From contig JAAYRW010000033.1 in assembly GCA_012518555.1 (NCBI GenBank), positions 1 through 32,652 on the forward strand: 32,652 nucleotides of DNA, written 5' to 3'. A program made the position numbers and the translations under genes. Source of the DNA: Tissierellia bacterium. Lineage in GTDB: Bacteria > Bacillota > Clostridia > Tissierellales > Sedimentibacteraceae. This document shows, one piece after another, positions 6,532 through 26,864 of this stretch. The first letter of the stretch is position 1, and the number at the start of each line of letters is the position of its first letter. The notes under the pieces were generated by a model. That model was not told the origin of the DNA. It did not search any database and worked only from the letters and a program-made list of their open reading frames with translations.

Positions 6532-6558
6532 TAAAACACCCTTGCAATTTGTCGAAAT
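6532..6558 (+). promoter_or_regulatory. Candidate sigma-28 promoter of the flgB operon
   Basis: TAAA (6532-6535), a 15-base spacer and GTCGAAAT (6551-6558) match the flagellar sigma consensus 4/4 and 6/8. It overlaps the sigma-A-type promoter. This recalls the B. subtilis fla/che operon, which has both sigma-A and sigma-D promoters before flgB. Confidence 0.45.
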
Positions 6559-6570
6559 TTCAATTATAAT
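6542..6570 (+). promoter_or_regulatory. Sigma-A-type promoter of the flgB flagellar operon
   Basis: TTGCAA (6542-6547) and TATAAT (6565-6570) are separated by exactly 17 bases, giving 4/6 and 6/6 matches to consensus. Transcription would begin near 6577, about 20 bases before the riboswitch core, so the riboswitch lies at the 5' end of the flagellar transcript. Confidence 0.75.
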
Positions 6571-6595
6571 ACCTTATATTAAGAAATATAAATTG

Positions 6596-6677
6596 AAAAA
6601 GGTAAAGCTACTGAAAAGTAGTGACACAAAACTATAGGGTCTAAAGATTTATTTCCATGGTTGCCAGTTGCCATTTT
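6596..6677 (+). promoter_or_regulatory. Cyclic-di-GMP-I (GEMM-I) riboswitch controlling flgB operon
   Basis: The layout matches the clostridial GEMM-I aptamer. GGTAA (6601-6605) pairs with TTGCC (6668-6672) to form P1, with flanking A/T pairs beyond a mismatch. The P2 hairpin is CTACT/AGTAG capped by a GAAA tetraloop (6613-6616). It is followed by GTGACACAAAAC, then a second arm with CTAAAG (6641-6646) and CCATGG (6655-6660) as tetraloop-receptor strands, closing with GGTTGCCAGTTGCC. In Clostridioides difficile a riboswitch of this class precedes flgB and turns the operon off when c-di-GMP is high. The same position here suggests the same logic, but the direction of control cannot be read from sequence alone. 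Confidence 0.9.
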
Positions 6678-6695
6678 ATGTAGTTAATATTCTAG

Positions 6696-6751
6696 GAGAG
6701 GAATGTATATTTATAGCCTGCATGATGACTATTAAACTATATATTCCTTTT
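6696..6751 (+). promoter_or_regulatory. Hairpin downstream of riboswitch, possible expression platform
   Basis: Positions 6696-6709 can pair with 6738-6751, 14 bp including G-U pairs, with the core AGGAATGTATA against TATATATTCCT. The T run (6748-6751) is short and partly inside the stem, so it is not a textbook terminator. It lies between the aptamer and the flgB ribosome binding site at the place where a switching element is expected. Confidence 0.45.
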
Positions 6752-6798
6752 GAATTATTATGAAGAATTTTGATTTTTTATTAATAGGGGGATAAAGG

Positions 6799-7188
6799 AT
6801 GAAAGTAAGTAATAATGTAAATTTACATTTATTAAACAAAAGTTTGGACGGTCTTTGGTTGAGACAACAAACTACAATGGAAAACATAGCCAACTATACT
6901 ACCCCAGGATATAAAAGCAAAGTAGTGGACTTTGAAAACATTTTAAAATCTAACATAAAAAATGCTAAGGGTAAAAGCACATCTGAAGTTAAAGAACAAA
7001 TTTTATCCGGTAATATAGTAGTTAAAGAAAATGACAATCAATCTATGCGTTTAGACGGCAATAATGTAGATTTGGAAAAGGAAAATTTACAGCTTGCCAA
7101 GACACAAATCCAATATATGTACACTATAAGTGAAATCAATTCTTATTTTTCAAAATTAAAATCGGTAATTTCCGAAGGAAAAAAATAA
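6799..7188 (+). CDS. flgB: Flagellar basal-body rod protein FlgB
   Basis: Proximal rod subunit, exported and assembled above the MS ring. At 129 residues it is normal for FlgB. The N-terminal axial motif reads TTMENIANYTTPGYKSKVVDFE (about residues 25-46), with the usual asparagine-rich turn. The C-terminal helix is NLQLAKTQIQYMYTISEINS. An AGGGGG site (6785-6791) precedes the ATG. It is the first gene of the long operon behind the riboswitch, and flgC follows 15 bases later. Confidence 0.95.
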   Translation: MKVSNNVNLHLLNKSLDGLWLRQQTTMENIANYTTPGYKSKVVDFENILKSNIKNAKGKSTSEVKEQILSGNIVVKENDNQSMRLDGNNVDLEKENLQLAKTQIQYMYTISEINSYFSKLKSVISEGKK

Positions 7189-7203
7189 TTTAAGGAGAAT
7201 GAT

Positions 7204-7635
7204 ATGTCTTTTTTGCAATCGATGAATATAAGTGGCTCTGGCCTTACAGCACAAAGGCTAAGGATGGATGTAATATCGGAGAATATAGCAAATATTGATA
7301 CTACACGAACGGAAGATGGAGGACCCTATAGAAGAAAAATGGTTGTCCTTGAAAGTGCTAATAGCTTTAGGGATATGGTGCTTAGAAACATAAATGACTA
7401 TGAAGCCGGAGGAGTAGAAGTTGCTGAAATAGTAGAAGATCTAAGCGAGTTTAAAAAAGTATACAATCCGGAACATCCTGATGCAGATGAAGATGGATAT
7501 GTAAATATGCCTAATGTTGATTCGCTAAAAGAAACTGTTGATATGATGGAAGCTTACAGAGCTTACCAGGCAAATATAACTGCACTTAATACTTTAAAAC
7601 AAATGGCGACTAAAGCATTAGAAATAGGGAGGTAA
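7204..7635 (+). CDS. flgC: Flagellar basal-body rod protein FlgC
   Basis: Second proximal rod protein. In its 143 residues the N-terminal motif GLTAQRLRMDVISENIANIDT is clear. The middle carries VYNPEHPDADEDGYVNMPNV (about residues 92-111), the FlgC-specific block. The C-terminal helix is MMEAYRAYQANITALNTLKQM. A TAAGGAG site lies 8 bases before the ATG. fliE follows after only 2 bases. Confidence 0.97.
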   Translation: MSFLQSMNISGSGLTAQRLRMDVISENIANIDTTRTEDGGPYRRKMVVLESANSFRDMVLRNINDYEAGGVEVAEIVEDLSEFKKVYNPEHPDADEDGYVNMPNVDSLKETVDMMEAYRAYQANITALNTLKQMATKALEIGR

Positions 7636-7637
7636 AA

Positions 7638-7931
7638 ATGTTTATTAAACCGATTCAGCCTATTAAAGGAATTGAAACTGCTGACACCACTGAAGTAAAC
7701 ACAGGGAAGGAAAACCTATTTAAAGATATATTTAGCAATGCTATCGATAACTATAAAAATGCAGAAGCAGAAGTAGATAAAGACATTTACAACTTGGCTA
7801 TAGGAGAAAGTGATGATTTGCATAATTTAATGATAAATATGGAAAAAGCACAAATTTCTTTAGATTTTCTTCTACAGTTAAGAAACAAGGCATTAGATGC
7901 TTATAATGAAATAATGCGTATGGGAGTTTAG
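7638..7931 (+). CDS. fliE: Hook-basal body complex protein FliE
   Basis: Adaptor between the FliF MS ring and the rod. The 97 residues match FliE size. Positions 27-97 hold the conserved helices: LFKDIFSNAIDNYKNAEAE, then DDLHNLMINMEKAQISLDFL and LRNKALDAYNEIMRMGV at the C-terminus. The ribosome binding site GGGAGG lies at the end of flgC. Confidence 0.95.
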   Translation: MFIKPIQPIKGIETADTTEVNTGKENLFKDIFSNAIDNYKNAEAEVDKDIYNLAIGESDDLHNLMINMEKAQISLDFLLQLRNKALDAYNEIMRMGV

Positions 7932-7956
7932 TAGATATACATATTAGGAGCTGCAA

Positions 7957-9522
7957 ATGGTAGAGCAATTTAAAAATATACAGAACAGTGTAATGGAATT
8001 TTGGGGAAAATTAAGCGACAAAAAAAGAAAACTATTGATAGGCGGACTTGCTGCTTTTTTAATAGCTGCTTTAATTATAGCCTTGTTACTTAATCGTAAG
8101 GACTATACTGTTCTATTCCGTAATATGGATGAAGCTGAAAGCGTTGAAGTTATGCAACAGCTCCAACAAAACAATGTTGATTATAAATATGAAGATGGAG
8201 GAACTATACTGATACCTAAGCAACAAGAAAGTATGTTAAGAATGCAATTAGCTCAGGCAGGACATCCTCGAACTGGAATAAATTATAGTCTTTTTACTGA
8301 AAACATTGATTTTATGACTACGGATTATGAAAAACGACAATATGAAATTTTCCAACTACAAGAAAGATTGCAAGGCTCCATAGAAACTATTGCAGGTGTA
8401 GAACAAGCAATAGTAACTATAAATGTACCGGAACAAAGGAGTTTTGCATGGGAAACAGATAAAAGAGAATCCTCCGCCTCGGTTAAGATTAATTTGAAAA
8501 ATGGATATACTTTAACTCCTTCGCAAGCTAACGGAATAATGCAGTTATTAGTAAAAAGCGTTGAAGGACTGAAGGAAGAGAATGTAGCCATAATTGATAC
8601 TGACGGAAACAGCTTAAAGCTAAGTAATGAAATGCAGCAAACAAGTACTATAAAACTAAAACTTGATATAGAAAAAGAATTTGAAAAAGAAACTGAAAGA
8701 GATGTAACAGAATTTCTATCTAAAATCTATGGCCCTGAAAACGTACAAGTTTCTGCAAAATGCACTATTAATTTTGATAAAAAAATAAGCGAAATACTTC
8801 AGTATCTTCCTGATGAGGAAACTAACTTAGGCGTACCCGGCAATACTCAAGACGAAAGAGAAATTACAGGACAGGGAGAAGTTACCGGCGGAGTTCCCGG
8901 AGCTGAATCTAATGCTGAACTACCTACATATCCGGGAGTAGTAGTAAATGGAGATAATATATACTTTAGAGATTCAAATACCATTAATTACTTAGTAAGC
9001 CAACTTAAAGAACAAGTTGAACACAATCCAGGAACTATAGAAAAACTTACTGTAGCCGCTGTAATTAACCAAGTAAATATGAGTGATGAAGAATTAGACA
9101 ATGTAAGAGAACTCATAGCTTATTCAGTAGGTATTGAAAGTGAAGATATAGCTTTAAGTAACATGGCATTTTACGATCCGGATTCACCTTCTGTTCCCGT
9201 TATTACACCGGAGCCTGGCGAGGAAGGTATTGAGTTAAGAGACATTCTGATTTTTGGTGGAGCTGCATTAGTATTAATTGCATTAATATCACTAATAATA
9301 GTTCTGTTACTTAATAGAAGAAAGAAGAAAAAGGAACTATTAGCTTCCCAAGTAACAATGGCTATACCTGAAGAAGAATTTTCTTGGTCAGATATACAAG
9401 AGGGAATAAAAGTACAAGAAACTCAAGAGCAAGCTATAATAAAACAGCTTAAAGAATTTACAACAGCTAATCCGGAAATTGCGGCACAGCTTATCAGAAC
9501 ATGGATAAAAGGAGATGATTAA
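7957..9522 (+). CDS. fliF: Flagellar MS-ring protein FliF
   Basis: Integral membrane ring on which the basal body is built. It has 521 residues. The first membrane helix (about residues 26-47, LLIGGLAAFLIAALIIALLL) is followed by the extracytoplasmic ring-building domains (NMDEAESVEVMQQLQQNNVDY; TTDYEKRQYEIFQLQERLQG). A second helix lies at about 430-455 (ILIFGGAALVLIALISLIIV). The cytoplasmic tail, which binds FliG, ends EIAAQLIRTWIKGDD. The stop directly abuts the fliG start. An AGGAGC site precedes the ATG. Confidence 0.97.
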   Translation: MVEQFKNIQNSVMEFWGKLSDKKRKLLIGGLAAFLIAALIIALLLNRKDYTVLFRNMDEAESVEVMQQLQQNNVDYKYEDGGTILIPKQQESMLRMQLAQAGHPRTGINYSLFTENIDFMTTDYEKRQYEIFQLQERLQGSIETIAGVEQAIVTINVPEQRSFAWETDKRESSASVKINLKNGYTLTPSQANGIMQLLVKSVEGLKEENVAIIDTDGNSLKLSNEMQQTSTIKLKLDIEKEFEKETERDVTEFLSKIYGPENVQVSAKCTINFDKKISEILQYLPDEETNLGVPGNTQDEREITGQGEVTGGVPGAESNAELPTYPGVVVNGDNIYFRDSNTINYLVSQLKEQVEHNPGTIEKLTVAAVINQVNMSDEELDNVRELIAYSVGIESEDIALSNMAFYDPDSPSVPVITPEPGEEGIELRDILIFGGAALVLIALISLIIVLLLNRRKKKKELLASQVTMAIPEEEFSWSDIQEGIKVQETQEQAIIKQLKEFTTANPEIAAQLIRTWIKGDD

Positions 9523-10527
9523 ATGTCAGGAAGATTAACGGGAAAACAGAAAGCCGCGGCTATAATTATCTCTTTAGGTGCTGAGGATGCAGCTAAAATT
9601 TACAAATACCTTAAAGAAGATGAAATAGAACAATTAACTTATGAAATTTCCCGATTACAACATTTAAGTCCCCAAACTATGGAGGAAACTCTAAAAGATT
9701 TTTATGAATTATGTCTAACCCAAAAAGTTATAACAGAAGGTGGACTTGAGTACGCAAGGAATGTATTAGAAAAGGCCTTCGGCTCACAGACAGCAGCCAG
9801 TCTTTTAGAAAGAGTAACCAAGACTTTGCGTTCAAAATCCTTTGATTTTGTAAGGAAGGCTGACTATAAAAATCTTCTGGCAATTATACAAAATGAACAT
9901 CCTCAAACTATAGCCTTAATACTATCCTATGCAAGGGCAGACCAAGCATCGACAGTTATAGCAGAATTACCAAAAGAAAAAAGAATAGACGTAGTTGAAA
10001 GAATTGCAAAAATGGACAGAACTTCACCGGAAGTTGTTAAATATGTGGAAAGAGAGTTAGAGAAAAAATTCCTTTCTATTGCATCTGTTGATTTTACAGA
10101 AATAGGTGGTATAAACTACGTTGCCGACATTATGAACAATATGGATAGATCTAATGAAAAATATATATTTGACGAGCTAAGTAAGACTGATGCCAAACTA
10201 TCTGATGAAATTAGAATGAGAATGTTCATATTTGAAGATATAGTTACATTAGATCCAATGAGTATTCAAAGATTCCTCAGAGAAGTTGATAGTAAAGACC
10301 TGGTATTGTCTATTAAAGGTTCAAATAAAGAAGTTGCTGATATTTTATTTAACAATATGTCCACCAAAATGGCAGAAACTATTAGATCTGAATTAGAATA
10401 CACTCACAATGTACGTTTAAGAGATGTGGAAGAGGCCCAACAAAGAATCGTATCTGTTATAAGGCGCCTCGAGGAAGAAGGAGAATTGGTAATAGCAAAA
10501 GGCGGAAAGGATGATATTATTGTCTAA
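9523..10527 (+). CDS. fliG: Flagellar motor switch protein FliG
   Basis: Rotor component that binds FliF and interacts with MotA to make torque. The 334-residue length is typical. The EHPQ motif of the middle domain is at residues 125-128, followed by TIALILSYARADQASTVIAEL. The C-terminal torque helix with alternating charges lies around residues 225-260 (LSDEIRMRMFIFEDIVTLD). An AAAGGAG site sits inside the end of fliF. The last codons overlap the fliH start. Confidence 0.97.
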   Translation: MSGRLTGKQKAAAIIISLGAEDAAKIYKYLKEDEIEQLTYEISRLQHLSPQTMEETLKDFYELCLTQKVITEGGLEYARNVLEKAFGSQTAASLLERVTKTLRSKSFDFVRKADYKNLLAIIQNEHPQTIALILSYARADQASTVIAELPKEKRIDVVERIAKMDRTSPEVVKYVERELEKKFLSIASVDFTEIGGINYVADIMNNMDRSNEKYIFDELSKTDAKLSDEIRMRMFIFEDIVTLDPMSIQRFLREVDSKDLVLSIKGSNKEVADILFNNMSTKMAETIRSELEYTHNVRLRDVEEAQQRIVSVIRRLEEEGELVIAKGGKDDIIV

Positions 10528-11281
10528 TATTATTAAGGGGGAATATGTAGTTTATAAGGAGGAACCCTACTACAAAGTTAAATCAGTTGAAGAGGAAGAA
10601 GTTACAAGCACTCCAAAAGAGGATTTATTCGAAATATATAATCAGCGAGAAATTATATTAAAAGAAGCTGAAGAAGAAGCTATGAAAATTATCAATAGTG
10701 CCAAAAGAAGAGCCCAGGCTGAAGTAGAACAATTCAAAAAAAGAGGCTATGAAGAGGGATATAATTCAGGTTTAGAAATAGGAAAAAGCAAAGGTTACAA
10801 AGAAGGATACCAAAAGGGACAAACAGAAATTTCAGAATTATTAGAAAATCAAAACAAAGAAAAAGTCAGAGAATTAGCGGCAATGATAGAAACAATCGAA
10901 AATGAAAAATTAGAAATAATTTCTAACTACGAAAATGAATTAATTGAACTCTCTGTAGAAATAGCAGAAAAAATAATAAAAAATGAAGTTGACACAAAAG
11001 ACCATATAGTATCATCAATAATCAGCAATGCTATTAAAGATTACCGCAATGTAGAATGGATCAAAATTTACCTTTCAACTAGTGATATTGCAACTATTGA
11101 AGGGGATAAAGATTTAGCAAATGAACTTAAAAAAATATCTAAAGATGTGAAAATAGAAGCATTAGAACAATTGGAAAAAGGCAGTGCGATTATTGAAACA
11201 GAAGACGGAATAGTTAATACAAGTATAGATACACGGTTAAAAAATCTTAAAGAAATGGTTTTGAATAAAAATGCAGGTTAA
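10520..11281 (+). CDS. fliH: Flagellar export ATPase regulator FliH
   Basis: Peripheral stalk-like partner of the FliI ATPase. I prefer the TTG at 10520, which yields MSNIIKGEYVVYKEEPYYK, the usual beginning of FliH, and lies 8 bases after AAAGGA. An ATG three codons upstream (10511) overlaps that site. A glutamate/lysine-rich coiled coil (about residues 45-80) precedes glycine-spaced repeats (GYEEGYNSGLEIGKSKGYKE, about 76-95) similar to the GxxxG segments known in FliH. A helical/strand C-terminal domain contains ELSVEIAEKIIKNEV. It overlaps fliG by 8 bases and fliI by 11. Confidence 0.9.
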   Translation: MSNIIKGEYVVYKEEPYYKVKSVEEEEVTSTPKEDLFEIYNQREIILKEAEEEAMKIINSAKRRAQAEVEQFKKRGYEEGYNSGLEIGKSKGYKEGYQKGQTEISELLENQNKEKVRELAAMIETIENEKLEIISNYENELIELSVEIAEKIIKNEVDTKDHIVSSIISNAIKDYRNVEWIKIYLSTSDIATIEGDKDLANELKKISKDVKIEALEQLEKGSAIIETEDGIVNTSIDTRLKNLKEMVLNKNAG

Positions 11282-12584
11282 GGATAAATTTAAGCGCATC
11301 CGACAGATGTTAAAACATGAAGATTTTTGTACATACATAGGAAAAGTAAAAAGAATATCCGGAATGATGGTAGAAGCAACAGGTAGCAAGTATAAAATCG
11401 GAGAGATTTGCCAAATAAATACAGATGTAGCCGGCAAAACAATTCCCGCAGAAGTGGTAGGTTTCAACGACGGGCAAGTACTCTTGATGCCCTATGAAGA
11501 TATTAAGGGTATAGGCTTAGGTAATACTGTAACTTCCACTAACAATAAACTTAAAATACCTGTTGGAGACTTCCTCATAGGAAGAATAGTAGATGCAACA
11601 GGTCAGCCTATAGATGATGGAGAAAAATTTACATCTAATGAATATTGCTACGTTGATAATGAATATATAAATCCTTTGTCAAGACCTAGAATAAATGAAA
11701 CATTAAGTTTCGGGGTAAAGGCTATCGATGGACTTTTAACTATTGGAAAAGGACAACGTATGGGAATTTTCGCAGGAAGTGGAGTAGGCAAAAGCACACT
11801 TTTAGGCATGGTTGCTAAAAATGTAAAAGCAGATATAAATGTTATTGCATTAGTAGGAGAGAGGGGAAGAGAAGTAAGAGAATTTATCGAAAAAGACTTA
11901 GGGGAAGAAGGGCTGAAAAGGTCTGTATTAGTAATTGCAACTTCAGACCAACCGGCAATGCTTAGAGTAAAATGCGCTTTAACTGCAACTACTATTGCCG
12001 AATATTTTAAAGACAAAGGAAAAGACGTACTTTTAATGATGGACTCTCTTACCAGATTTGCCATGGCTCAAAGAGAAATAGGCTTGGCAACGGGAGAACC
12101 TCCCGTATCCAGAGGATATACCCCCTCTATATATGCAGAACTGCCAAAACTATTAGAAAGAAGTGGAAATTTCGCCCAAGGCTCAATAACTGGTATTTAT
12201 ACCGTATTAGTTGAAGGAGATGATACTAATGAACCTATTTCAGATACGGTAAGAGGTATAGTAGATGGTCATATAGTATTAACCAGAAAATTAGCAAATT
12301 CAAATCATTATCCGGCTATAGACATTAATGGAAGTATATCGAGACTTATGACAGATATAGCAGGGGAAGAACATAATGAAAAGGCTAAAAAAATCAGAGA
12401 TATTTTAGCAGAATATTACGCAAACTATGATTTAATTTCTATAGGGGCTTACAAAAAGGGTACAAACCCAAAGTTAGATGAAGCAATAAAAAAGATAGAC
12501 AAAGTAAATTCCTTCTTGAAACAAGGAATTAATGAAAAATATACTTTTGACGAAATTATAGATTTAATGGATGAAATAATATAA
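11271..12584 (+). CDS. fliI: Flagellum-specific ATPase FliI
   Basis: Hexameric ATPase that powers or primes flagellar type III export. Walker A is AGSGVGKST at residues 168-176, and Walker B (VLLMMDSLTRFAMA) has its aspartate at about 258. GERGREVREF and YTPSIYAELPKLLERSG are standard F1-like blocks. The 437-residue length is normal. It begins inside fliH, so translation is probably coupled. Confidence 0.97.
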   Translation: MQVKDKFKRIRQMLKHEDFCTYIGKVKRISGMMVEATGSKYKIGEICQINTDVAGKTIPAEVVGFNDGQVLLMPYEDIKGIGLGNTVTSTNNKLKIPVGDFLIGRIVDATGQPIDDGEKFTSNEYCYVDNEYINPLSRPRINETLSFGVKAIDGLLTIGKGQRMGIFAGSGVGKSTLLGMVAKNVKADINVIALVGERGREVREFIEKDLGEEGLKRSVLVIATSDQPAMLRVKCALTATTIAEYFKDKGKDVLLMMDSLTRFAMAQREIGLATGEPPVSRGYTPSIYAELPKLLERSGNFAQGSITGIYTVLVEGDDTNEPISDTVRGIVDGHIVLTRKLANSNHYPAIDINGSISRLMTDIAGEEHNEKAKKIRDILAEYYANYDLISIGAYKKGTNPKLDEAIKKIDKVNSFLKQGINEKYTFDEIIDLMDEII

Positions 12585-12597
12585 AAACGAGGTAGAA

Positions 12598-13050
12598 ATG
12601 AAAAAATTTACTTTCTCATTGCAAAAAGTATTAGAGATAAAAGAACAACTTTTAGAAAATTTAAAAATTGAACTTAGTAATTTAAATCTTCAATTAAGAA
12701 ATATCGAATTGTCTATTAAAAATATAGAAGAAAAATACCAAGATATAGAAAATGAATACAGTGAAAAAACATCTAAGGCTATATCTGTTGGTCAAATGGC
12801 TTACTATAAAATATTAATGACCAGCACTTTAAAACAACTTGAAGAAAAGGAAGAAGAAAAAGAATTAACCCTAAAGAAAATAGCAGCAAAGAGACAAGAA
12901 ATAATCAATATGAATATCGAAATTTCAAGTTTAGACAAGCTAAAAGAAAAAGAGTTGGAAAAATACAAAAAAGAATATAACAGAAAGCAAGAATTATTTA
13001 TAGAAGAATTCGTTTCAAACAAAAGTATAGTAAATGAATATGCAATTTAA
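12598..13050 (+). CDS. fliJ: Flagellar export chaperone FliJ
   Basis: Coiled-coil stalk that sits in the FliI hexamer and contacts FlhA. It has 150 residues, nearly all charged helix, starting MKKFTFSLQKVLEIKEQLLE, which is the typical FliJ opening (F-x-L-q-x-V-L-x-i-K). It lies directly between fliI and fliK, as in most Firmicutes. An ACGAGGT site precedes the ATG. The family is weakly conserved in sequence, but start motif and context agree. Confidence 0.92.
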   Translation: MKKFTFSLQKVLEIKEQLLENLKIELSNLNLQLRNIELSIKNIEEKYQDIENEYSEKTSKAISVGQMAYYKILMTSTLKQLEEKEEEKELTLKKIAAKRQEIINMNIEISSLDKLKEKELEKYKKEYNRKQELFIEEFVSNKSIVNEYAI

Positions 13051-13079
13051 TAGGCAATAGATTGAAAGGAGGTGAAAAA

Positions 13080-14258
13080 TTGAAGATCCTACAAAATGTA
13101 GCCATAGGTCAAGACCTTCCCCCTATTGTCAGAAATATCAAGCTAGGCAATAACTTTGCAACTCTCTTGCAAAATGCGACAGAAAATCTTACTGGAAAAT
13201 TGTTAGAAGATAGTAGTTTGATAGCGGGTGATTTAACAGTAAGTAACTTACTAGCTACTGAAGATACTGAGGATATTGAAGATATTATAGAAGAAAGTTT
13301 TGAAGACATTGAGAACCCTCAAGAAAATTATGAAAATTTAAAAAATTTAGCAAATTTCTTTTATAGACCAACAAGTCTGCCAGTAGAAATAATTAATGAG
13401 GAAATAGCTTCAGAAGGGGTATCAATAAAGGGAAGGCCTGTAGAGGGTATAGTAGCAAAGGAATATGAAATGCTTTCAGAAGTTCCTACTGAAAATCTTC
13501 TTCCACAAGCAAAGCAAGAAACTCAATTATTAAAACAAAGGCTTTTTGCAGATCATAAAGCTATGGGAAAGCAAGTAGCTGTAAAAGAGGAAAAACAAGT
13601 TGCTTTTGAAAAACTAAGGACTTTAGAAAGCTTAAAAGCTCAAGTAGAGAAATTTCAAGTCGAAAAAACCCAAGTTGAAAAAGCTGAAGAAAAACCAGAA
13701 GTTGAAGTTGAAATAGGCACTCTGGCTAAACTGCCCTTTGGGGAAAATAGAATTACTATAAGTGATGAATCTAACAAAATTCAATCGCAAGTATTGACTC
13801 AAGTTAAAGACAAAATAGTTATTATGGTAGAGCAGTCAGAAGGTTCAGAAATCAAAACTGTCACTATGCAGCTACAGCCTGAAAGTTTAGGTAAAGTTAG
13901 TATTAAAATGGTTTTTGAAAACAACAAGTTATCAGTAGAAATTGAAGCACAAAAGGAAGAAAGTCAGAAAATAATATCTTCAAGTGTCGGTGAACTAAAA
14001 GAAATGCTAGGTAAAAGATCAGAAGAAGTAACAGTTTTAGTCAAGACTTATGGCCAAGAAGAAAGACAGGTGCAAAATAATTGGAACAGTCAACAAATTG
14101 CTGAAAATTTTTACCAGGGAGATAATTTAGACCATGGGAGAGGTCGACAGCAAAACAATTATTACAAGGGTCCAAAGGAAAAAAAAGAGACATTTTCTGA
14201 CCTTATAAACTTAAACAATAAGATAGAGGAGGGTAATTTTGAATATCAATCCTTATAA
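13080..14258 (+). CDS. fliK: Hook-length control protein FliK
   Basis: Secreted ruler that switches export specificity when the hook is finished. The conserved C-terminal domain is at about residues 255-350, with VTMQLQPESLGKVSIKMVFE and VEIEAQKEESQKI. The N-terminal two thirds are low complexity, including an acidic stretch (ATEDTEDIEDIIEESFEDIE) and a QVEKFQVEKTQVEKAEEK repeat. The start is the TTG at 13080, 5 bases after a perfect AAAGGAGGTGA. An in-frame TTG at 13062 lies before that site and has none of its own. The 3' end overlaps flgD by 20 bases. Confidence 0.9.
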   Translation: MKILQNVAIGQDLPPIVRNIKLGNNFATLLQNATENLTGKLLEDSSLIAGDLTVSNLLATEDTEDIEDIIEESFEDIENPQENYENLKNLANFFYRPTSLPVEIINEEIASEGVSIKGRPVEGIVAKEYEMLSEVPTENLLPQAKQETQLLKQRLFADHKAMGKQVAVKEEKQVAFEKLRTLESLKAQVEKFQVEKTQVEKAEEKPEVEVEIGTLAKLPFGENRITISDESNKIQSQVLTQVKDKIVIMVEQSEGSEIKTVTMQLQPESLGKVSIKMVFENNKLSVEIEAQKEESQKIISSSVGELKEMLGKRSEEVTVLVKTYGQEERQVQNNWNSQQIAENFYQGDNLDHGRGRQQNNYYKGPKEKKETFSDLINLNNKIEEGNFEYQSL

Positions 14259-14835
14259 CTCAGCTTTTAAAAGCCACAATGTAAACAATGACTTAAATGT
14301 TCAAAACAGCAACGAAGCTTTGAACATGCAGGACTTTTTAAACTTGCTGGTAGCCCAAATATCTAATCAAGATGTATTAAATCCTATGGACAATACAGAA
14401 TTTGTAGCACAAATGGCACAATTTTCAGCCTTACAAGCTATGACCGATTTAACAGAATTGGCAATGCAGGGACAAGCCACATCTCTCATAGGGAAAAATG
14501 TTGTAGTAGCCCATTACAACAATTCAGGCCAGCTAGAAGTTCAAGAAGGTCTTGTTGAAAGAGTTACTATCCACGGTGGAAAAACAAAGCTCTATGTAAA
14601 TGATATGGAATACGACTATTCTAATGTAATGGAAATAAAAGAAGCCCAAAAAGAGGAAGATCCTCTAGTGGAAATGCTAGGCACTATAGCAGATAAAATA
14701 GACAATATTGACAACAGTCTAGCAACAATCAGAGAAAATAATAAGGCTGATATTAGCAAGAACATGGGCGAAGACTTTTACCAAGACAATCCAGACATGG
14801 ATTTTGAAGGAGAAAGCCAGACAATTGAAGAATAA
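14239..14835 (+). CDS. flgD: Hook assembly (capping) protein FlgD
   Basis: Caps the growing hook. The FlgD N-terminal block is clear: ALNMQDFLNLLVAQISNQD, then PMDNTEFVAQMAQFSALQAM (about residues 28-70). A small strand-rich section (LIGKNVVVAHYNNSGQLEVQ) follows. The rest is a short acidic helical tail, so the immunoglobulin-like domains of enterobacterial FlgD are missing, as in other short Gram-positive FlgD proteins. It starts at TTG (14239) 8 bases after GAGGAGGG, inside the end of fliK. Confidence 0.93.
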   Translation: MNINPYNSAFKSHNVNNDLNVQNSNEALNMQDFLNLLVAQISNQDVLNPMDNTEFVAQMAQFSALQAMTDLTELAMQGQATSLIGKNVVVAHYNNSGQLEVQEGLVERVTIHGGKTKLYVNDMEYDYSNVMEIKEAQKEEDPLVEMLGTIADKIDNIDNSLATIRENNKADISKNMGEDFYQDNPDMDFEGESQTIEE

Positions 14836-14865
14836 GACTGCAAATAAAAGATAGGCAGGTGAGTC

Positions 14866-15231
14866 ATGACAGACCTAAATTTTATAAGAAAAATTAGCAA
14901 TTTAAACTCAGTCCAACCAAACTACAAGGTAAAAAAGGAAAACAACTTTAAAGAATTACTTAATGAGAAAATTGAAAATGAAGTAGTTTTTTCTAAACAT
15001 GCAAATGAAAGAATTGCCCAAAGAAATATCAATGTAAGCAGTCAGGTTACAGAAAAGCTCAAGGAAGCCAACCTGCAAGCAAAGGATAAGGGGCTAAAAA
15101 ACGTACTTGTAATGGTTGACAATTTAGCTTTTATAATTAACACTAAAAGCAACAAAGTTATAACAGCTGTAAATAATGAAGATTTAAAGGAAAATATTTT
15201 TACTAATATTGATGGAGCTGTAATAAAATAG
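14866..15231 (+). CDS. TIGR02530-type small flagellar operon protein
   Basis: 121-residue protein of the family annotated only as a flagellar operon protein (TIGR02530), regularly found between flgD and flgE in clostridia and relatives. The family signature is visible in residues 42-105: VVFSKHANERIAQRNINVSS, then LKEANLQAKDKGLKNVLVMV and FIINTKSNKVITAVN. No signal peptide or membrane segment is present. The biochemical role is not known to me, and position suggests hook assembly. The ribosome binding site is GGCAGGTG before the ATG. Confidence 0.88.
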   Translation: MTDLNFIRKISNLNSVQPNYKVKKENNFKELLNEKIENEVVFSKHANERIAQRNINVSSQVTEKLKEANLQAKDKGLKNVLVMVDNLAFIINTKSNKVITAVNNEDLKENIFTNIDGAVIK

Positions 15232-15306
15232 CCGGTCCTTTTAAGGAGGCTAAGGTTCCGACGATTGAAGAACTAAACAGCTTAAGAATAAAAGGAGAAA
15301 GATACT

Positions 15307-16152
15307 ATGATGAAAGCACTATATTCTGGAGTTTCCGGAATGAGAAGTCACCAAACGAAAATGGACGTAATAGGTAACAACATTGCCAACGTTAATACAT
15401 ACGGTTTTAAATCACAAAGAGCCACCTTTAGAGATGTTTACTACCAAACCCTGAGAAACCCTGGTGCCCCAGATACAGACAGAGGAGGAACTAATGCTTC
15501 CCAAGTAGGTTACGGCGCCCAAGTAGGTTCTATAGATACTATCCATACAATTTCAGGATATACACCTACAGGTAAACAAACAGATATATATATAAATGGA
15601 GATGGATATTTAAGAGTTCAAAATTCCAGTGGTGAAACTCTTTATACCCGCCTTGGGGCACTGAATTTTGACTCAGAAGGGAACTTAGTTGATGTAAATG
15701 GTTCCCGAGTTATCGGACTTGATAATCAGAGCGGTAATATAACTACAACACCAACAGACTTTACTAGTGCAGATGTAATAAGCATAAAAGATTATGAAGA
15801 CTACAGAAATATTACCATAAATGCCGATGGTTCAATAACAGCTGTTGATACAACTGATACTATTGTTACCATAGCTTGGATTCCTGTTTACAACATTCCT
15901 AACCAGGACGCCTTAATTTTGGAAGGAGATTCATACTACTCGGTAGGTAATAATGCAGGAATTCCTGAAGCTTTTGTCCCAGGTGCTGGAGGCACAGGTC
16001 CTTTGGTAACCGGCGGTCTAGAAATGTCAAACGTTGATTTAGCTAATGAATTCTCTGATATGATTATTACACAAAGAGGATTCCAAGCTAATACTAAAAT
16101 AATATCTGTAGTAGACCAAATGCTAGAAGAACTGGTCAACCTGAAGAGGTAA
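15307..16152 (+). CDS. flgE: Flagellar hook protein FlgE (short form)
   Basis: Major hook subunit, secreted. The 281-residue length is close to the short FlgE of B. subtilis and well under the ~400 of enterobacteria. The axial N-terminal motif is GVSGMRSHQTKMDVIGNNIA and NVNTYGFKSQRATFRDV. The middle block is TDIYINGDGYLRVQNSSGE, and the C-terminal helix is LANEFSDMIITQRGFQANTK. It could be mistaken for FlgG, but its place after flgD and two separate rod genes at 26.9-28.3 kb favour FlgE. AAGGAG lies 9 bases before the first of two adjacent ATG codons. Confidence 0.9.
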   Translation: MMKALYSGVSGMRSHQTKMDVIGNNIANVNTYGFKSQRATFRDVYYQTLRNPGAPDTDRGGTNASQVGYGAQVGSIDTIHTISGYTPTGKQTDIYINGDGYLRVQNSSGETLYTRLGALNFDSEGNLVDVNGSRVIGLDNQSGNITTTPTDFTSADVISIKDYEDYRNITINADGSITAVDTTDTIVTIAWIPVYNIPNQDALILEGDSYYSVGNNAGIPEAFVPGAGGTGPLVTGGLEMSNVDLANEFSDMIITQRGFQANTKIISVVDQMLEELVNLKR

Positions 16153-16159
16153 ATGCCCA

Positions 16160-16189
16160 AGGGGAACACCTTTCGAGGAATGTTCCCCT
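16160..16189 (+). repeat. GGGG...CCCC hairpin after flgE, copy A
   Basis: AGGGGAACA (16160-16168) pairs with TGTTCCCCT (16181-16189). A CC/GG extension and an AA bulge surround a TTTCGA loop. No T tail follows, so it is not an ordinary terminator. The right arm GAGGAATGTTCCCCTC is nearly identical to 30962-30976 at the other end of the cluster. Confidence 0.6.
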
Positions 16190-16215
16190 CATAAAAATAA
16201 TCCGCCCCTTGCCAT

Positions 16216-16265
16216 AAAATTATTAGTTATGTTCATATGGAATTGTGAATATAATTAATAATTTT
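16216..16265 (+). terminator. Long AT-rich hairpin between flgE and flbD
   Basis: A 20-base arm (16216-16235, beginning AAAATTATTA) pairs with 16246-16265 (ending TAATAATTTT). The pairing is 18 Watson-Crick plus 2 G-U pairs, around a 10-base loop. It begins with A's and ends with T's, so it could act as a weak bidirectional terminator or as an mRNA stability or processing element. Genes on both sides are in the same direction and functionally linked. Confidence 0.5.
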
Positions 16266-16269
16266 ATAA

Positions 16270-16299
16270 GTAGGTGTGTCCCACTAAATAAGGACCTAC
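16270..16299 (+). other. Third stem-loop in the flgE-flbD gap
   Basis: GTAGGT (16270-16275) pairs with ACCTAC (16294-16299). TCC/GGA (16279-16281 with 16292-16294) is an alternative inner pairing that competes for A16294. With the two hairpins to its left, it fills the only sizeable gap inside the flgB operon. I do not recognise it as a known riboswitch. Confidence 0.4.
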
Positions 16300-16343
16300 C
16301 TTAACTAGCTAAATAAAAAGTGTACCATACCAGAGGAGGAATT

Positions 16344-16544
16344 ATGATAGAGGTATTAGGAATCAATGGAGAGGCTTTTTTAATCAATGCGGCATTAATT
16401 GAAAAAATAGATTTTATCCCGGAAACAAAAATTACACTGACAACGGGAAAATACTATTTAGTGAGAGACACCAAAGAAGAAATCATTAATAAAGTCATTA
16501 CATTTAATCAGAAAATAATTAAAGGCGTTACTGCTGCTGAGTAA
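16344..16544 (+). CDS. flbD: FlbD family protein
   Basis: 66-residue protein of the Gram-positive flagellar FlbD family (the SwrD type, not the Caulobacter regulator of the same name). The typical pattern is MIEVLGINGEAFLINAALIE, then KIDFIPETKITLTTGKYYLV. In Bacillus the equivalent swrD supports motor torque by raising stator function, and here it directly precedes motA and motB. The start is the ATG at 16344, since GAGGAGG lies just upstream. A longer in-frame reading from about 16320 has no ribosome binding site. Confidence 0.92.
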   Translation: MIEVLGINGEAFLINAALIEKIDFIPETKITLTTGKYYLVRDTKEEIINKVITFNQKIIKGVTAAE

Positions 16545-16557
16545 AGAGGAGAGTTAC

Positions 16558-17400
16558 ATGAATTTATCGTTTTTATTAGGTGCATTTTCAGGAATTGGAC
16601 TAGTACTGTTCGGAATATTACAAAGTGGGTCAAGTACTTCTCAGGTACTATCAAGTTTCGTAGATATGCCCAGTGTTTATATAACTTTTGGAGGTTCTAT
16701 AGCTGCCACCATAATGTCAGTTCCGGTTAAATATTTAAAAGATGTACCACGAAACTTGAGAGTTTTAATGAAGAGAGAAAAAATAGATTTAAACTATTAT
16801 ATTGATGTTATTGAAGAGCTGGCCAAGGAAGCAAGGTTAAAAGGACTCTTAGTTCTTGAAGAAAAAGTTAATTCAATGGAATTAGAGGATGAATTTCTAA
16901 AATACTGTGTAATGCTTATTGTAGATGCTATTGAGCCTACCAAAGTAAAGACTCAGATTGAAAATGAAATTGATTGTGTAGAAGCAAGACATGCATCTGC
17001 TTGGAATGTATTTGATACTTTAGGTTCCTTCGGTCCATCCTTTGGTATGCTGGGAACATTAATCGGTCTGATAAACATGCTTGCTAATATGGATGCTAGT
17101 CAAGGGGCTGATGCTTTAGGAAAGGGTATGTCTGTTGCCTTAGTTACTACCTTTTACGGTTCCGTTTTAGCAAATATGATTTGTGCTCCTATATCAAATA
17201 GATTAAAAGCAAAGCATGACGAGGAAATGATAGCAAAAGAATTAATAATGGAAGGTGTTTTGTCAATACAGTCAGGAGAAAATCCCCGTTATATAAGAGA
17301 AAAATTAAATTCATACATAACCTATCAAGAAAGAAGGACTATGGCAGGAGCAGCCGAAGGGGAAAAACCAAAGAGATCTATCTTTAGAAGAAGAAGCTAA
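16558..17400 (+). CDS. motA: Flagellar motor stator protein MotA
   Basis: Membrane ion-channel subunit of the stator. The 280 residues include hydrophobic segments at about 3-22 and 35-53, and a pair at about 155-175 and 185-210 (GSFGPSFGMLGTLIGLINML; GMSVALVTTFYGSVLANMIC), the conserved MotA core. The cytoplasmic loop between them (about 60-150) contacts FliG. The basic tail ends KRSIFRRRS. An AGAGGAGAG site precedes the ATG. It pairs with the motB gene 22 bases downstream. Confidence 0.96.
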   Translation: MNLSFLLGAFSGIGLVLFGILQSGSSTSQVLSSFVDMPSVYITFGGSIAATIMSVPVKYLKDVPRNLRVLMKREKIDLNYYIDVIEELAKEARLKGLLVLEEKVNSMELEDEFLKYCVMLIVDAIEPTKVKTQIENEIDCVEARHASAWNVFDTLGSFGPSFGMLGTLIGLINMLANMDASQGADALGKGMSVALVTTFYGSVLANMICAPISNRLKAKHDEEMIAKELIMEGVLSIQSGENPRYIREKLNSYITYQERRTMAGAAEGEKPKRSIFRRRS

Positions 17401-17422
17401 CTAACAAAAAGTAGGGATGAAA

Positions 17423-18223
17423 ATGTCAAGAAAAAGAAGAAAAGATACAGGCGGTGGCGCAAGTTGGATGGAAACCTACAGTGATATGGTAACCTTGCTA
17501 CTAACATTTTTTATAATGTTATATGCTATGTCAACTATTGATGCACAAAAATATGCAGCCATAGTAGCTTCCTTTTCCAAGGAGTTAAATCCGCAAGCAT
17601 ACCAGCAGATAATTTCCCAAGAGGAAGAAGCAGATGGTATTGATATAGTTGAAGATGAGGAAGAAATAAAAAAAGAAATAGAAGAAATAGATAAATTGTA
17701 TACCCTCCTTAAACAATATATAGATGAAAGAGGTATGGAACAACAAGTAGAAATAAGTAAAAGTGAAGAATATGTATTTATAAGATTTTCCGATTCAGTA
17801 ACTTTTAGAGGGTATAGCGATATATTAGAACAAAGTGGAAGAGAAATATTAGATGTTTTAGCTGAGGGGTTAGTATTAGTAGATGAATACATAGAAGAAG
17901 TGGTAATTGCCGGTCATACTGCTGAAGTAGAACACGATACAACAGATATAGACAGATCACTTTCCACTAATAGGGCCAATGTAGTTCTAAGATATTTGGA
18001 AGACAAAGCTGTTATAGACCCTGCAAAATACTTAGCAATAGGATATGGAATGCACAGCCCCATAGCCGACAATAGTACCTCAGAAGGTAGATCCAAAAAC
18101 AGAAGGGTCGAAATATATATCAGTAGGAAAGGCCACCCTATAAGCTATACTAAAATAATCCAAGATACAATAAATAGCGATGAAGACAATACAGAATATC
18201 AGAGACAAACATATATTGATTAA
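17423..18223 (+). CDS. motB: Flagellar motor stator protein MotB
   Basis: Peptidoglycan-anchored stator subunit. A short basic cytoplasmic tail is followed by one membrane helix with the ion-carrying aspartate in ETYSDMVTLLLTFFIMLYAM (D21 from the chosen start). The C-terminal OmpA-like domain contains VVIAGHTAEVEHDTTD, RSLSTNRANVVLRYL and GRSKNRRVEIYI. I chose the ATG at 17423, 6 bases after AGGG; the ATG at 17417 abuts that site. Whether protons or sodium drive it cannot be told here. fliL, often next in order, is absent. Confidence 0.95.
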   Translation: MSRKRRKDTGGGASWMETYSDMVTLLLTFFIMLYAMSTIDAQKYAAIVASFSKELNPQAYQQIISQEEEADGIDIVEDEEEIKKEIEEIDKLYTLLKQYIDERGMEQQVEISKSEEYVFIRFSDSVTFRGYSDILEQSGREILDVLAEGLVLVDEYIEEVVIAGHTAEVEHDTTDIDRSLSTNRANVVLRYLEDKAVIDPAKYLAIGYGMHSPIADNSTSEGRSKNRRVEIYISRKGHPISYTKIIQDTINSDEDNTEYQRQTYID

Positions 18224-18249
18224 GAAAATATACAGAATGAGGATTGAAT

Positions 18250-19236
18250 ATGGCAGAAATATTATCACAAAGCCAAATTGACGAATTGCTTAATAATTTA
18301 AGTTCCGGTGATGTAAGTTTACAAGAATTAGAATCTACGGAGAAAAGGGTAAAGGAATATGATTTTAGAAGTCCAAAAAAAATCACAAAAGAAACTATAG
18401 GACTTATAACAGGCATATACGAAAATTACTGTAGAATACTTACGTCCAGACTTACGTCCATGCTGAGACTGATGTGCGACGTAACCTTAGAACAGGCGGA
18501 AGAAACTGTATTTCAGGAGTATAACAACGCCTTAGACGATTATGTTTTAATGGGCGTTATAGACCTTAAATATCCTGATGACACAACTTCCGACAATCAA
18601 ATTTTAATGGAAGTGTCAAGACCTTTATCCTTCGTTATAATAGATAGATTATTGGGAGGAAGTGGCGAAGAATATGCCAATATAAGGGATTACACCGACA
18701 TAGAACTATCATTGTTAGGCAATGTCCTAAGGGAGCTTGTAAAGCTTATGGGTCCAACTTGGGAGAATACTTTAGCAATAGAAACAGATTTAGCTAAAGT
18801 TGAAACTAATGCCAGGTTTATACAGTCTATAAATTATAATGATACAGTGGTAGTAATTGTTCTAAATGTAACCATAAATGATTTGTCTGGGAAAATCACC
18901 ATCTGCATTCCCACAGACCTAGTAGAAGAAATATTTAAGAAAGTAGATACTTTAGCCAAAAGCTTAGTTAAAAAATCAAAGGAAAATATTAATGAGCAAA
19001 AATCAGCAATTATTAATTCTATTAAATCATCTGACTTAACTATAACTGGAATACTAGGTAGTGCTCAGGCTACATTGGAAGATATACTGAATATGCAAGA
19101 AGGAGATTTAATCATATTAGATAAAAAGATAAATTCCAATGTAGACATAAATGTTGAAAACAAAAAATGGTTTGAAGGTAAGTGGGGAAGCAGGAAAAAT
19201 AAAAGTGCAATTAAGATAAAGAAAACTATGGACTAA
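18250..19236 (+). CDS. fliM: Flagellar motor switch protein FliM
   Basis: C-ring switch component that binds phosphorylated CheY. The N-terminus MAEILSQSQIDELLNNL is the conserved CheY-binding peptide. The middle CheC-like domain includes YDFRSPKKITKET, ENYCRILTSRLTSMLR and LLRRLLGGSGE-like text (actual: VIIDRLLGGSGEEYAN). The C-terminal surface-presentation domain contains LTITGILGSAQATLEDILNM. The ATG at 18250 sits 6 bases after GAGGA; an in-frame TTG at 18244 overlaps that spacing. The length of about 328 residues is normal. Confidence 0.96.
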   Translation: MAEILSQSQIDELLNNLSSGDVSLQELESTEKRVKEYDFRSPKKITKETIGLITGIYENYCRILTSRLTSMLRLMCDVTLEQAEETVFQEYNNALDDYVLMGVIDLKYPDDTTSDNQILMEVSRPLSFVIIDRLLGGSGEEYANIRDYTDIELSLLGNVLRELVKLMGPTWENTLAIETDLAKVETNARFIQSINYNDTVVVIVLNVTINDLSGKITICIPTDLVEEIFKKVDTLAKSLVKKSKENINEQKSAIINSIKSSDLTITGILGSAQATLEDILNMQEGDLIILDKKINSNVDINVENKKWFEGKWGSRKNKSAIKIKKTMD

Positions 19237-19247
19237 GGGAGTTATCT

Positions 19248-20360
19248 ATGTTAAACGAAAATGTATTTTCTCATATGGAACGGGATGTAATAGGAGAAGT
19301 TATGAATATAAGCTTAGGCTCATCTGCTACGTCACTGTCAGAGCTTTTAGGCAAAAGAGTTGAAATAACCGTTCCGGAAATTGATGTAACTAATGTTAAA
19401 GGTTTTAATTATAAGAATTTAGAACCTGCAGTAGGGGTTGAAATTAACTATGTTGAAGGTTTAAAAGGCGTTAATCTCATGATATGGAGAAGAGATGATG
19501 TCAAAACCATTGTTGAAATACTTATGGGTCAACCTATGGAAGAAGAGTTTGAAATGAATGAAATTAATACTAGTGCCATATGCGAAGTAATGAATCAAAT
19601 GATGGGTTCTGCAGCTACAGCTCTTTCAGACTTTTTAACAAAACCAATAAATATTTCTACACCTATAGCTTATGAAATTGACGACAATACAGAATTTAAA
19701 AACAAGTACTTCAAAGATGAAGACGTAATAGTTGCAGTAAGTTTCGAATTATTTGTGGAAGAAAGTATTGAAAGTCGATTCATAAATGTCATGCCGGTTA
19801 CCCTAGCAAGAGAAATAGTATCAAATTTTTTAAAAGGAACCGAAAGTATCGAAAGTATTGAAAGTTTTGAAAGTATTCCAAGTATGGAAATGGATATGGA
19901 GGTTAGTGATCAGAAGAATTTAGAAATTCCTAAACCAGAAGAAACATTTAGCCAGCAGTATGAAGAAGCTACAGCTGTGAAACAATCAAAAGCTGCTGTA
20001 ACAAATCAAAAGAAAAGGGAACAAAAACCTGTATATGTAAAACCCATGGAACTTACTTCTTTTGATGAAAATGAAGAAGAGGTAGAAGTAACCCAGGTAC
20101 AAAAATCTAACTTAGATTTAATAATGTTGGTACCTTTGACAATCTCTGTTGAAATAGGAAAGACTAGCAAAGCTATAAAAGAAATCCTTGAATTCGGACC
20201 GGGAACTATAGTTGAATTAGACAAGCAAGCAGGAGCATTAGTTGACGTTGTAGTCAACGGCAAGTTAATTGCCAAAGGAGAAGTTGTTGTTGTAAATGAC
20301 AATTTCGGAGTAAGAATAGTTGAAATAATTAAAAAAGATGAATTAGTAAAATCATTATAA
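19248..20360 (+). CDS. fliY: FliY: CheY-P phosphatase and FliN-type switch protein
   Basis: Bifunctional C-ring protein: a CheC-like phosphatase for CheY-P fused to a FliN domain. Two ExxN active-site motifs are present (DVIGEVMNISLGSSATSLSE near residues 13-32; SAICEVMNQMMGSAATALSD near 106-125). A low-complexity linker (about 195-280) contains an ESIESIESFESI repeat. The C-terminal FliN part is LIMLVPLTISVEIGKTSKAI, then GTIVELDKQAGALVDVVVNG. The 370-residue length matches Bacillus FliY. GGGAG precedes the ATG, and cheY follows. Confidence 0.95.
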   Translation: MLNENVFSHMERDVIGEVMNISLGSSATSLSELLGKRVEITVPEIDVTNVKGFNYKNLEPAVGVEINYVEGLKGVNLMIWRRDDVKTIVEILMGQPMEEEFEMNEINTSAICEVMNQMMGSAATALSDFLTKPINISTPIAYEIDDNTEFKNKYFKDEDVIVAVSFELFVEESIESRFINVMPVTLAREIVSNFLKGTESIESIESFESIPSMEMDMEVSDQKNLEIPKPEETFSQQYEEATAVKQSKAAVTNQKKREQKPVYVKPMELTSFDENEEEVEVTQVQKSNLDLIMLVPLTISVEIGKTSKAIKEILEFGPGTIVELDKQAGALVDVVVNGKLIAKGEVVVVNDNFGVRIVEIIKKDELVKSL

Positions 20361-20379
20361 AGGCATAACGGAGGAAAAA

Positions 20380-20742
20380 ATGGCAAGTAAAATTTTAATA
20401 GTAGATGATGCTGCATTTATGAGAATGATGATAAAGGACACTTTAAAAAAGAATGGTTATGAAAATTTTTTAGAGGCTGCTGATGGAGAACAAGCAGTAC
20501 AAGTTTATAAAGCTGAAAAGCCGGACTTAGTATTGTTGGATATAACTATGCCTAATAAAAACGGCATAGATGCATTAAAAGAAATAAAGGAAATGGATCC
20601 AGATGCTAAAATAGTTATGTGTTCTGCAATGGGACAAGAATCTATGGTTGTAGAAGCCATAAGGCATGGTGCCAAAGACTTTATAGTTAAACCTTTTAAA
20701 GCAGAAAGAATTTTAAAAACAGTACAAAGTATAATCGGATAG
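20380..20742 (+). CDS. cheY: Chemotaxis response regulator CheY
   Basis: Single receiver domain of 120 residues with no output domain. It is phosphorylated by CheA and binds FliM/FliY to change motor rotation. Catalytic residues are present: the acidic pair D9/D10 in ILIVDDAAF, phospho-acceptor D54 in VLLDITMP, S82 in MCSAMG, and K104 in IVKPFKAER. A GGAGG site precedes the ATG. The fliY-cheY-fliO order is the usual Firmicute arrangement. Confidence 0.96.
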   Translation: MASKILIVDDAAFMRMMIKDTLKKNGYENFLEAADGEQAVQVYKAEKPDLVLLDITMPNKNGIDALKEIKEMDPDAKIVMCSAMGQESMVVEAIRHGAKDFIVKPFKAERILKTVQSIIG

Positions 20743-20754
20743 GAGCTGATTGTA

Positions 20755-21105
20755 ATTAAAGATATAATCACACTTATACTATCGATTATAGGGATAATCT
20801 TAGTTTTGTTCTTAACTTATTTTTGTACAAAATGGATTTCCACTAAAACTACTTTGGCAGCTAAATCAAAGTATATGAAGATTCTAGATAGAATAATGCT
20901 GGGACAAAATAAATTTATTGCTATTGCAGAAATACACAAGAGCTACTACCTGCTGAGTATTACTGAAAAGCATATAAATATACTTAAAGAATTAGATGAT
21001 TTTCAACCTTTAGATACCGACGATGAAAGTAGTTTAAAGTTTAATAAAATTTTAGACAAGTATAAATTTAGGAAAATAGGAAGCGACAATGACGAGAAAA
21101 TATAA
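20755..21105 (+). CDS. fliO: Flagellar export protein FliO/FliZ, apparent ATT start
   Basis: Small membrane protein that supports FliP complex assembly. The frame has no ATG or GTG ahead of the membrane helix. Starting at ATT (20755), AGGAG (20741-20745) is 9 bases upstream and the product begins (M)KDIITLILSIIGIILVLFL, a complete helix at residues 4-24. It then reads TKWISTKTTLAAKSKYMKIL and a short FliO domain containing LDRIMLGQNKFIAIAEI. The next usable start, TTG at 20806, would cut the helix in half and lacks a good site. FliO identity also rests on position before fliP. The ATT start is inferred; a sequence error is possible. Confidence 0.8.
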   Translation: MKDIITLILSIIGIILVLFLTYFCTKWISTKTTLAAKSKYMKILDRIMLGQNKFIAIAEIHKSYYLLSITEKHINILKELDDFQPLDTDDESSLKFNKILDKYKFRKIGSDNDEKI

Positions 21106-21832: not shown

Positions 21833-21900
21833 AGTGAAAAATTGGTGAATGAGACTGGGCAAGGAATGAGAGACTGCGAGGGAATGAGGGGAGGAGAAAG
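21833..21900 (+). repeat. G-rich triple repeat between fliP and fliQ
   Basis: This 68-bp gap contains three copies of GAATGAG (21847-21853, 21864-21870, 21882-21888), spaced 17 and 18 bases apart within longer imperfect repeats. It is much richer in G than its surroundings. It ends in GGGGAGGAGAAAG, the ribosome binding site of fliQ. Two tiny frames (starting at ATG 21849 and 21866) could be read; the second would end in a TGA overlapping the fliQ ATG. Confidence 0.55.
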
Positions 21901-22167
21901 ATGAGTATTTCACTGGTTATGGAAATTATGCAGGCAGCAGCCGGAGTTGCCATTAAAGTAGGTGGGCCTATCCTAGCTTCAAGTTTAATAATAGGTTTAA
22001 CTATAGCAATTTTCCAAGCTGCAACTCAAATACATGAACAAACATTAACCTTTGTTCCAAAATTATTTCTTACTGCAATAATATTAGTACTGCTAGGAAA
22101 CTGGATGTTGGAAACTTTATCAGACTTTACCTACTATATATTTGATTTAATGTTAAGAGTTTATTAG
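21901..22167 (+). CDS. fliQ: Flagellar export gate protein FliQ
   Basis: 88-residue membrane protein with two helices, part of the FliPQR gate. The helices lie at about residues 16-39 (KVGGPILASSLIIGLTIAIF) and 52-74 (LFLTAIILVLLGNWMLETL). Between them is the highly conserved QAATQIHEQTLTFVPK block. A strong GGGGAGGAG site precedes the ATG. Confidence 0.96.
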   Translation: MSISLVMEIMQAAAGVAIKVGGPILASSLIIGLTIAIFQAATQIHEQTLTFVPKLFLTAIILVLLGNWMLETLSDFTYYIFDLMLRVY

Positions 22168-22176
22168 AGGAAAGCT

Positions 22177-22947: not shown

Positions 22948-22956
22948 GGTGGTATT

Positions 22957-26063: not shown

Positions 26064-26071
26064 AGGAAAGA

Positions 26072-26851: not shown

Positions 26852-26864
26852 GAGGAGGAAGAAT

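Follow-up and report, generated by a model that had tools for sequence, protein, structure and literature searches.

The window, by which we mean the whole 32,652-nt stretch of Tissierellia bacterium DNA that was analysed, carries a long run of flagellar and chemotaxis genes preceded by a leader that contains a riboswitch aptamer. By comparing 29 ORFs with NCBIfam and the small flbD with Pfam, the genes were ordered as flgB, flgC, fliE, fliF, fliG, fliH, fliI, fliJ, fliK, flgD, TIGR02530, an flgE/flgG-like gene, flbD, motA, motB, fliM, fliY, cheY, fliO, fliP, fliQ, fliR, flhB, flhA, the sigma-28 gene, an flgF/G-like gene, an flgG-like gene, fapA, cheC and cheD. A flagellar or chemotaxis model was the best NCBIfam match for 27 of the 29 ORFs; several assignments (FliH, FliJ, FliO, FlgD, MotA, MotB, CheY, CheC and CheD) fell below the curated NCBIfam cut-off, the fliK-like ORF matched a needle-length model only in NCBIfam and Flg_hook in Pfam, and the fapA ORF was matched by Pfam FapA and by no NCBIfam model. 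The largest intergenic gap in the unit was 191 nt (16153-16343, taking 16344 as the start of flbD), and terminator-like sites on both strands showed no excess over shuffled sequence in 6700-16000 (2 versus a shuffle mean of 5.0) or in 15900-32652 (4 versus 7.8). We infer that the 30 ORFs from flgB to cheD are co-transcribed; the 30 same-strand ORFs and the TIGR02479 match agree with the initial annotation, which had seen the aptamer as heading a 30-gene flagellar operon that includes the flagellar sigma factor.

Features of the flgB leader and the downstream flagellar unit (window coordinates)
Feature	Position	Strand	Evidence
Sigma-A-type promoter: TTGCAA (6542-6547), 17 nt, TATAAT (6565-6570)	6542..6570	+	promoter scan, 10/12 matches
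TTGTCGAAA, Spo0A-box-like motif in the -35/-10 spacer	6549..6557	+	TGTCGAA at 6550
c-di-GMP-I (GEMM-I) riboswitch aptamer	6591..6675	+	RF01051, 69.3 bits, full length
Aptamer 3' strand AGTTGCCAT, expected antiterminator partner	6666..6674	+	pairing across 19 leaders
Terminator-like hairpin (GGAATGTATAT...ATATATTCC)	6700..6747	+	-11.0 kcal/mol
CATGATGACT, degenerate antiterminator strand in the hairpin loop	6721..6730	+	window pairing -7.8 kcal/mol
Short U tract UUUUGAAU directly after the hairpin	6748..6755	+	5 of the first 8 nt are U
Presumed regulated unit, 30 ORFs from flgB to cheD	6799..30909	+	ORFs and family scans
Flagellar sigma factor (FliA/WhiG family)	26072..26851	+	TIGR02479, 230.5 bits vs cut-off 189.6

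Upstream of the leader come fliW and csrA and then a perfect 11-bp inverted repeat with a terminal T-run (6298-6319), probably the boundary between two operons. The flhA and sigma-28 genes are just 8 nt apart (26063-26072), a spacing that leaves flhF or flhG absent from that place, and no FlhF match above the cut-off was found in any of the 25 genus genomes. Enzymes of c-di-GMP metabolism are encoded in the window's genome as well, with 9 GGDEF and 6 EAL matches.

The TTGCAA-17-TATAAT-type promoter layout of the window is common to all 18 leaders of the genus for which upstream sequence was available, the window included (promoter counts are out of 18 because the G013 contig begins within its aptamer), and transcription would start near 6577. 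The aptamer had been placed between the promoter and flgB, and the coordinates obtained here put it there, with flgB beginning at 6799.

The covariance-model search proposed with the initial annotation identified the aptamer as RF01051 (c-di-GMP-I), matched over the full length of the model (positions 1-87 of 87) with E = 8.6e-12 in the whole-window scan and a score nearly twofold the gathering value of 35 bits, so that its description as a well-formed GEMM-I aptamer was borne out. Nothing else in the window passed an Rfam gathering threshold, and the window's genome (88% complete, 176 contigs) contains no second RF01051 match. Alignments contained both the GAAA-capped P2 and the CUAA-type receptor strand that had been described, two elements which we take to dock with one another in c-di-GMP-I aptamers. 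The proposed P1 helix (GGTAA/TTGCC) fared differently, as the Rfam consensus structure has no such helix: GGT instead pairs through its second G and its T, across P2, with the A-C of GACAC, and P3 is closed by the strand ahead of the final GCC. Beside the binding site the C-G pair of the family is U-A in the window aptamer (GGU...GACAC), which, judged from the sequence, is a compensating change. The window aptamer would be expected to bind c-di-GMP.

Ligand choice was considered at model position 11, which we equate, by our own assignment, with the nucleotide responsible for guiding it in pilM. According to PMC9262584, the counterpart of G11 of Cd1 (the riboswitch of the Clostridioides difficile flgB operon) guides selectivity in pilM, a change of G11 in Cd1 itself was without large effect, and cGAMP-sensing relatives of this aptamer class exist. 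The alignment of the 19 genus aptamers has 32 invariant columns, and the window aptamer retains G at position 11, as do 18 of the 19 leaders. That the window aptamer senses another cyclic dinucleotide such as cGAMP, as could be argued from those relatives and from the A at this position in one genus member (G011), is therefore extremely improbable in view of the retained G. The G011 aptamer itself (L047, 2004-2089 on the - strand) is the single one of the 19 with A in place of G, and could favour a different cyclic dinucleotide.

The aptamer-flgB arrangement is constant in the flgB-bearing genomes of the genus, which includes Sedimentibacter, and sporadic in an order-level sample. Among 25 genus genomes flgB was found in 19, and all 19 carry RF01051 directly upstream on the same strand (the G017 flgB is spread over two contigs and the G020 locus contains Ns). 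The other 18 leaders resemble that of the window in aptamer, hairpin position and flgB, 17 of the 18 also in promoter layout, and their aptamers score 62.2-74.8 bits. Outside the genus, where 26 flgB loci (one per genome, flanks up to 1500 nt) were sampled, RF01051 lay close upstream of flgB at only three (L103, L081 and L084).

Between the aptamer and flgB, a hairpin followed by a U-rich tail could be drawn by hand in 19 of 19 leaders. An automatic hairpin-and-tail score, for which platform lengths were set by hand from the aptamer and flgB coordinates, was equalled by no more than 3 of 60 shuffles in 13 leaders and was unremarkable in the other six (8 to 26 of 60 shuffles); in G022, G019 and G011 it picked other hairpins than those drawn by hand. 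In the window the combined score was equalled by 1 of 60 shuffles, and the hairpin is the third strongest of the 19. With hairpin bounds taken by hand or from patterns read off the leaders, the U content of its tail (5/8) is the lowest of the set, versus 6-8 of 8 in the rest, while its weighted T-score of 3.49 is undercut in three leaders (G011, G010 and G018). Further, a standard terminator scan of 6200-7200 found nothing. The initial annotation, noting that this hairpin is not a textbook terminator, suggested a different switching device; this is corrected by the relatives, whose hairpins at the same place have longer U-runs. By this comparison, the hairpin at 6700-6747 most likely represents a terminator homologue whose U tract is short, at which transcription would be terminated.

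Other structural measures gave mixed results. A hairpin just before the terminator 5' arm was above chance over the leader set (0/300 shuffles) and at chance level in the window (139/300), and the whole window leader was no more stable than its shuffles (z -0.51, 60/200 as good). In the G009 leader (L036), two similar terminator-like modules stand in tandem past the aptamer, resembling a duplicated platform. A leader-peptide ORF within the hairpin (ATG 6703 after AGGAG) was considered and rejected, because the ATG, which is common to the stems of the window, G013 and G005, is absent in G017 and in ATATAATTTA-type stems.

To compete with such a terminator, the aptamer 3' strand would need a partner in the platform. 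When the last 24 nt of each aptamer were paired with the platform in the 19 leaders, with platform ends hand-set at the U-runs, the summed pairing was -268.6 kcal/mol; none of 200 dinucleotide-shuffled sets reached it (mean -169.6, best -200.4), and 13 of the 19 individual leaders were matched by no more than 10 of 200 shuffles. Upon exchanging the aptamer 3' strands among leaders, the true sum was reached in only 4 of 2000 trials, so that the aptamer strand and its platform partner seem to covary. In ensemble folding of growing transcripts, 17 of the 19 leaders reached a pairing probability of 0.72 or more at one or more lengths; the exceptions were the window (at most 0.09) and G009 (0.19). 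These leaders are related, some being near-identical (G015 and G021), and hence do not constitute independent tests. Where leaders were examined in detail, the partner strand belongs to the loop or the 3' arm of the terminator, and the pairing would thereby block the terminator.

The window departs from this pattern. Its pairing energy was at chance (175/200 shuffles as good), its own strand came only 11th of 19 when the strands were exchanged, and the antiterminator duplex was stronger in all 18 other leaders; where G005 has CATGGTGACT, the expected antiterminator strand of the window reads CATGATGACT. G009 was likewise at chance (117/200) and G017 nearly so (71/200). Forcing the best pairing once the strand is complete was unfavourable in the window, costing 4.9 kcal/mol, and the cost was higher in G017 (7.0), G009 (6.5), G018 (6.5) and G024 (6.3); such energies, which leave out tertiary contacts, are rough. 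An antiterminator complementary to the aptamer 3' strand, as expected of a Cd1-type switch, was therefore found over the 19 leaders but not in the window. The window's leader is accordingly filed as a c-di-GMP-I riboswitch, without Cd1-type switching being taken as proven, and its functioning like Cd1 is suggested by analogy with its relatives.

Taken with the genus-wide series, we consider it likely that the flgB leader is a c-di-GMP-I riboswitch acting as a Cd1-type transcriptional OFF switch, probably leaky and shallow in this genome. At low c-di-GMP, the aptamer 3' strand, containing the ligand-pairing C, would be free to pair with a strand of the terminator hairpin, and the antiterminator so formed would let polymerase continue into the flagellar operon. 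At high c-di-GMP the 3' strand would be kept in the aptamer and the hairpin at 6700-6747 would form, giving transcripts of about 175 nt that end near 6750. Leakiness is probable because, compared with most relatives, the window has a U tract and an antiterminator strand that look degenerate. The aptamer, promoter, gene order, conservation and platform architecture across relatives are supported by computation; ligand binding, termination, co-transcription, and the direction and depth of the c-di-GMP response in the window's organism are what we infer.

The same weakness could mean that the aptamer has been kept and the switch lost, the hairpin then forming independently of ligand, with a short U tract that leaks, and leaving operon expression fixed and partly attenuated. 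Besides the chance-level antiterminator, its pairing probability and the poor tail, this would fit the dominance of the hairpin at the U-run end, where antiterminator pairing costs 11.1 kcal/mol. Yet G013 and G017 also need about 12 kcal/mol at that point and nevertheless pair strongly earlier (0.94 and 0.96), and the aptamer is undecayed, scoring within the range of its relatives, which suggests continued use; we thus regard loss of the switch as unlikely. With the switching part looking weak, direct c-di-GMP control could be slight or lost, and the switch in the window is probably weak, short of being proven dead.

Control at the level of translation, with ON polarity, would require the ligand-free aptamer to pair with the flgB ribosome-binding site and c-di-GMP to free that site. 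Such a pairing, between UUUAUUUCC (6648-6656) and GGGGGAUAAA, does occur in the minimum-free-energy fold of 6578-6800, but this fold is no better than shuffles, the pairing is absent from the fold of 6591-6798, and the leaders of the relatives point to termination, all of which makes this mode of control very improbable.

The preferred Cd1-type reading was compared with characterized systems. A c-di-GMP-I riboswitch at a flgB operon is already known in C. difficile, where Cd1 (Cdi-1-3) has an aptamer of the same class as the window, as given in PMC6366702, PMC3649979, PMC6200980 and PMC9262584, and the window adds a further example. In C. difficile, as in the window, the aptamer stands ahead of a flagellar operon of ~23-24 kb that contains the flagellar sigma factor; in Cd1, as over the genus leader set, the 3' strand of the aptamer is competed for by a strand further downstream. 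The Cd1 response is described there as OFF, and PMC9262584 has the Cd1 antiterminator pairing G147 with C87, the ligand-pairing nucleotide, thereby unfolding the binding pocket. The terminated RNA is ~160 nt in C. difficile and predicted at ~175 nt here, whereas the start site lies 496 nt from flgB in C. difficile and presumably ~220 nt in the window. The likeness to C. difficile drawn in the initial annotation thus holds for a c-di-GMP-I aptamer heading a flagellar operon with sigma-28, the aptamer being conserved in every flgB-bearing genus genome. In contrast to Cd1, the U tract and antiterminator of the window look weak, and its promoter carries a Spo0A-box-like motif. The Bc1 c-di-GMP-I riboswitch of Bacillus thuringiensis shares the aptamer class and a terminator-based platform, with two terminators 28 bp apart by the abstract of PMC11218506; a repeated terminator-like module is seen here only in G009. 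Among the matches listed by a literature search on Sedimentibacter riboswitches and on Firmicutes c-di-GMP-I riboswitches and flagellar operons, no title concerned this leader.

A perfect 10-bp inverted repeat (ACACGAATAT/ATATTCGTGT, 6483-6492 and 6513-6522) with a 20-nt loop lies ~20 nt ahead of the -35 element. An invertible switch of the C. difficile type was ruled out, as only 51 nt separate the hairpin from flgB, too few for such an element, and the upstream repeat encloses just its 20-nt loop.

At the promoter, TGTCGAA or TGTCAAA was found in the flgB promoter region of 17 of the 18 leaders, versus 0.59 occurrences expected by base composition on the + strand of all 18, counts that were made after the motif had been spotted by eye and in leaders that are related. 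Fifteen leaders have it at a fixed place before the -35 element (7 TGTCGAA, 8 TGTCAAA), two (the window and G017) have TGTCGAA within the -35/-10 spacer, and neither form was found in the G005 leader; TGTAAAA occupies the place before -35 in the window, G005 and G017. In C. difficile, TGTCGAA is termed the consensus Spo0A box upstream of spo0A and sigH (PMC7643835), and a Spo0A_C match is present in 24 of the 25 genus genomes (G000:C116 in the window's genome). As Spo0A was suggested before, in PMC3395874, to regulate clostridial motility operons negatively through such boxes, a putative Spo0A box at flgB is a consistent extension and no new idea. Sporulation and c-di-GMP inputs may, by these motifs, converge on one operon.

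A broader proposal is that control of motility is shifting from RNA to promoter in this lineage, the platform degenerating while the aptamer is kept. The antiterminator strand and U tract would have decayed into a shallow rheostat or frozen attenuator, and the Spo0A-box-like motif would have moved from its place before -35 into the spacer in the window and G017, where a bound factor would block polymerase. We hold this to be decidedly unlikely; if true, the genus would be a graded series of riboswitch-platform decay alongside takeover by a transcription factor.

The conserved leaders suggest that direct c-di-GMP control of a whole flagellar operon is not unique to C. difficile and has been kept genus-wide in non-model anaerobes. 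The main interest lies in this leader series, which offers natural variation in terminator and antiterminator strength across 19 members, and in the weak platform of the window's genome, a useful case for how much antiterminator a c-di-GMP switch requires. Genome-wide, each of the 25 genus genomes contains between 0 and 12 c-di-GMP-I matches, with 1 in the window's genome.
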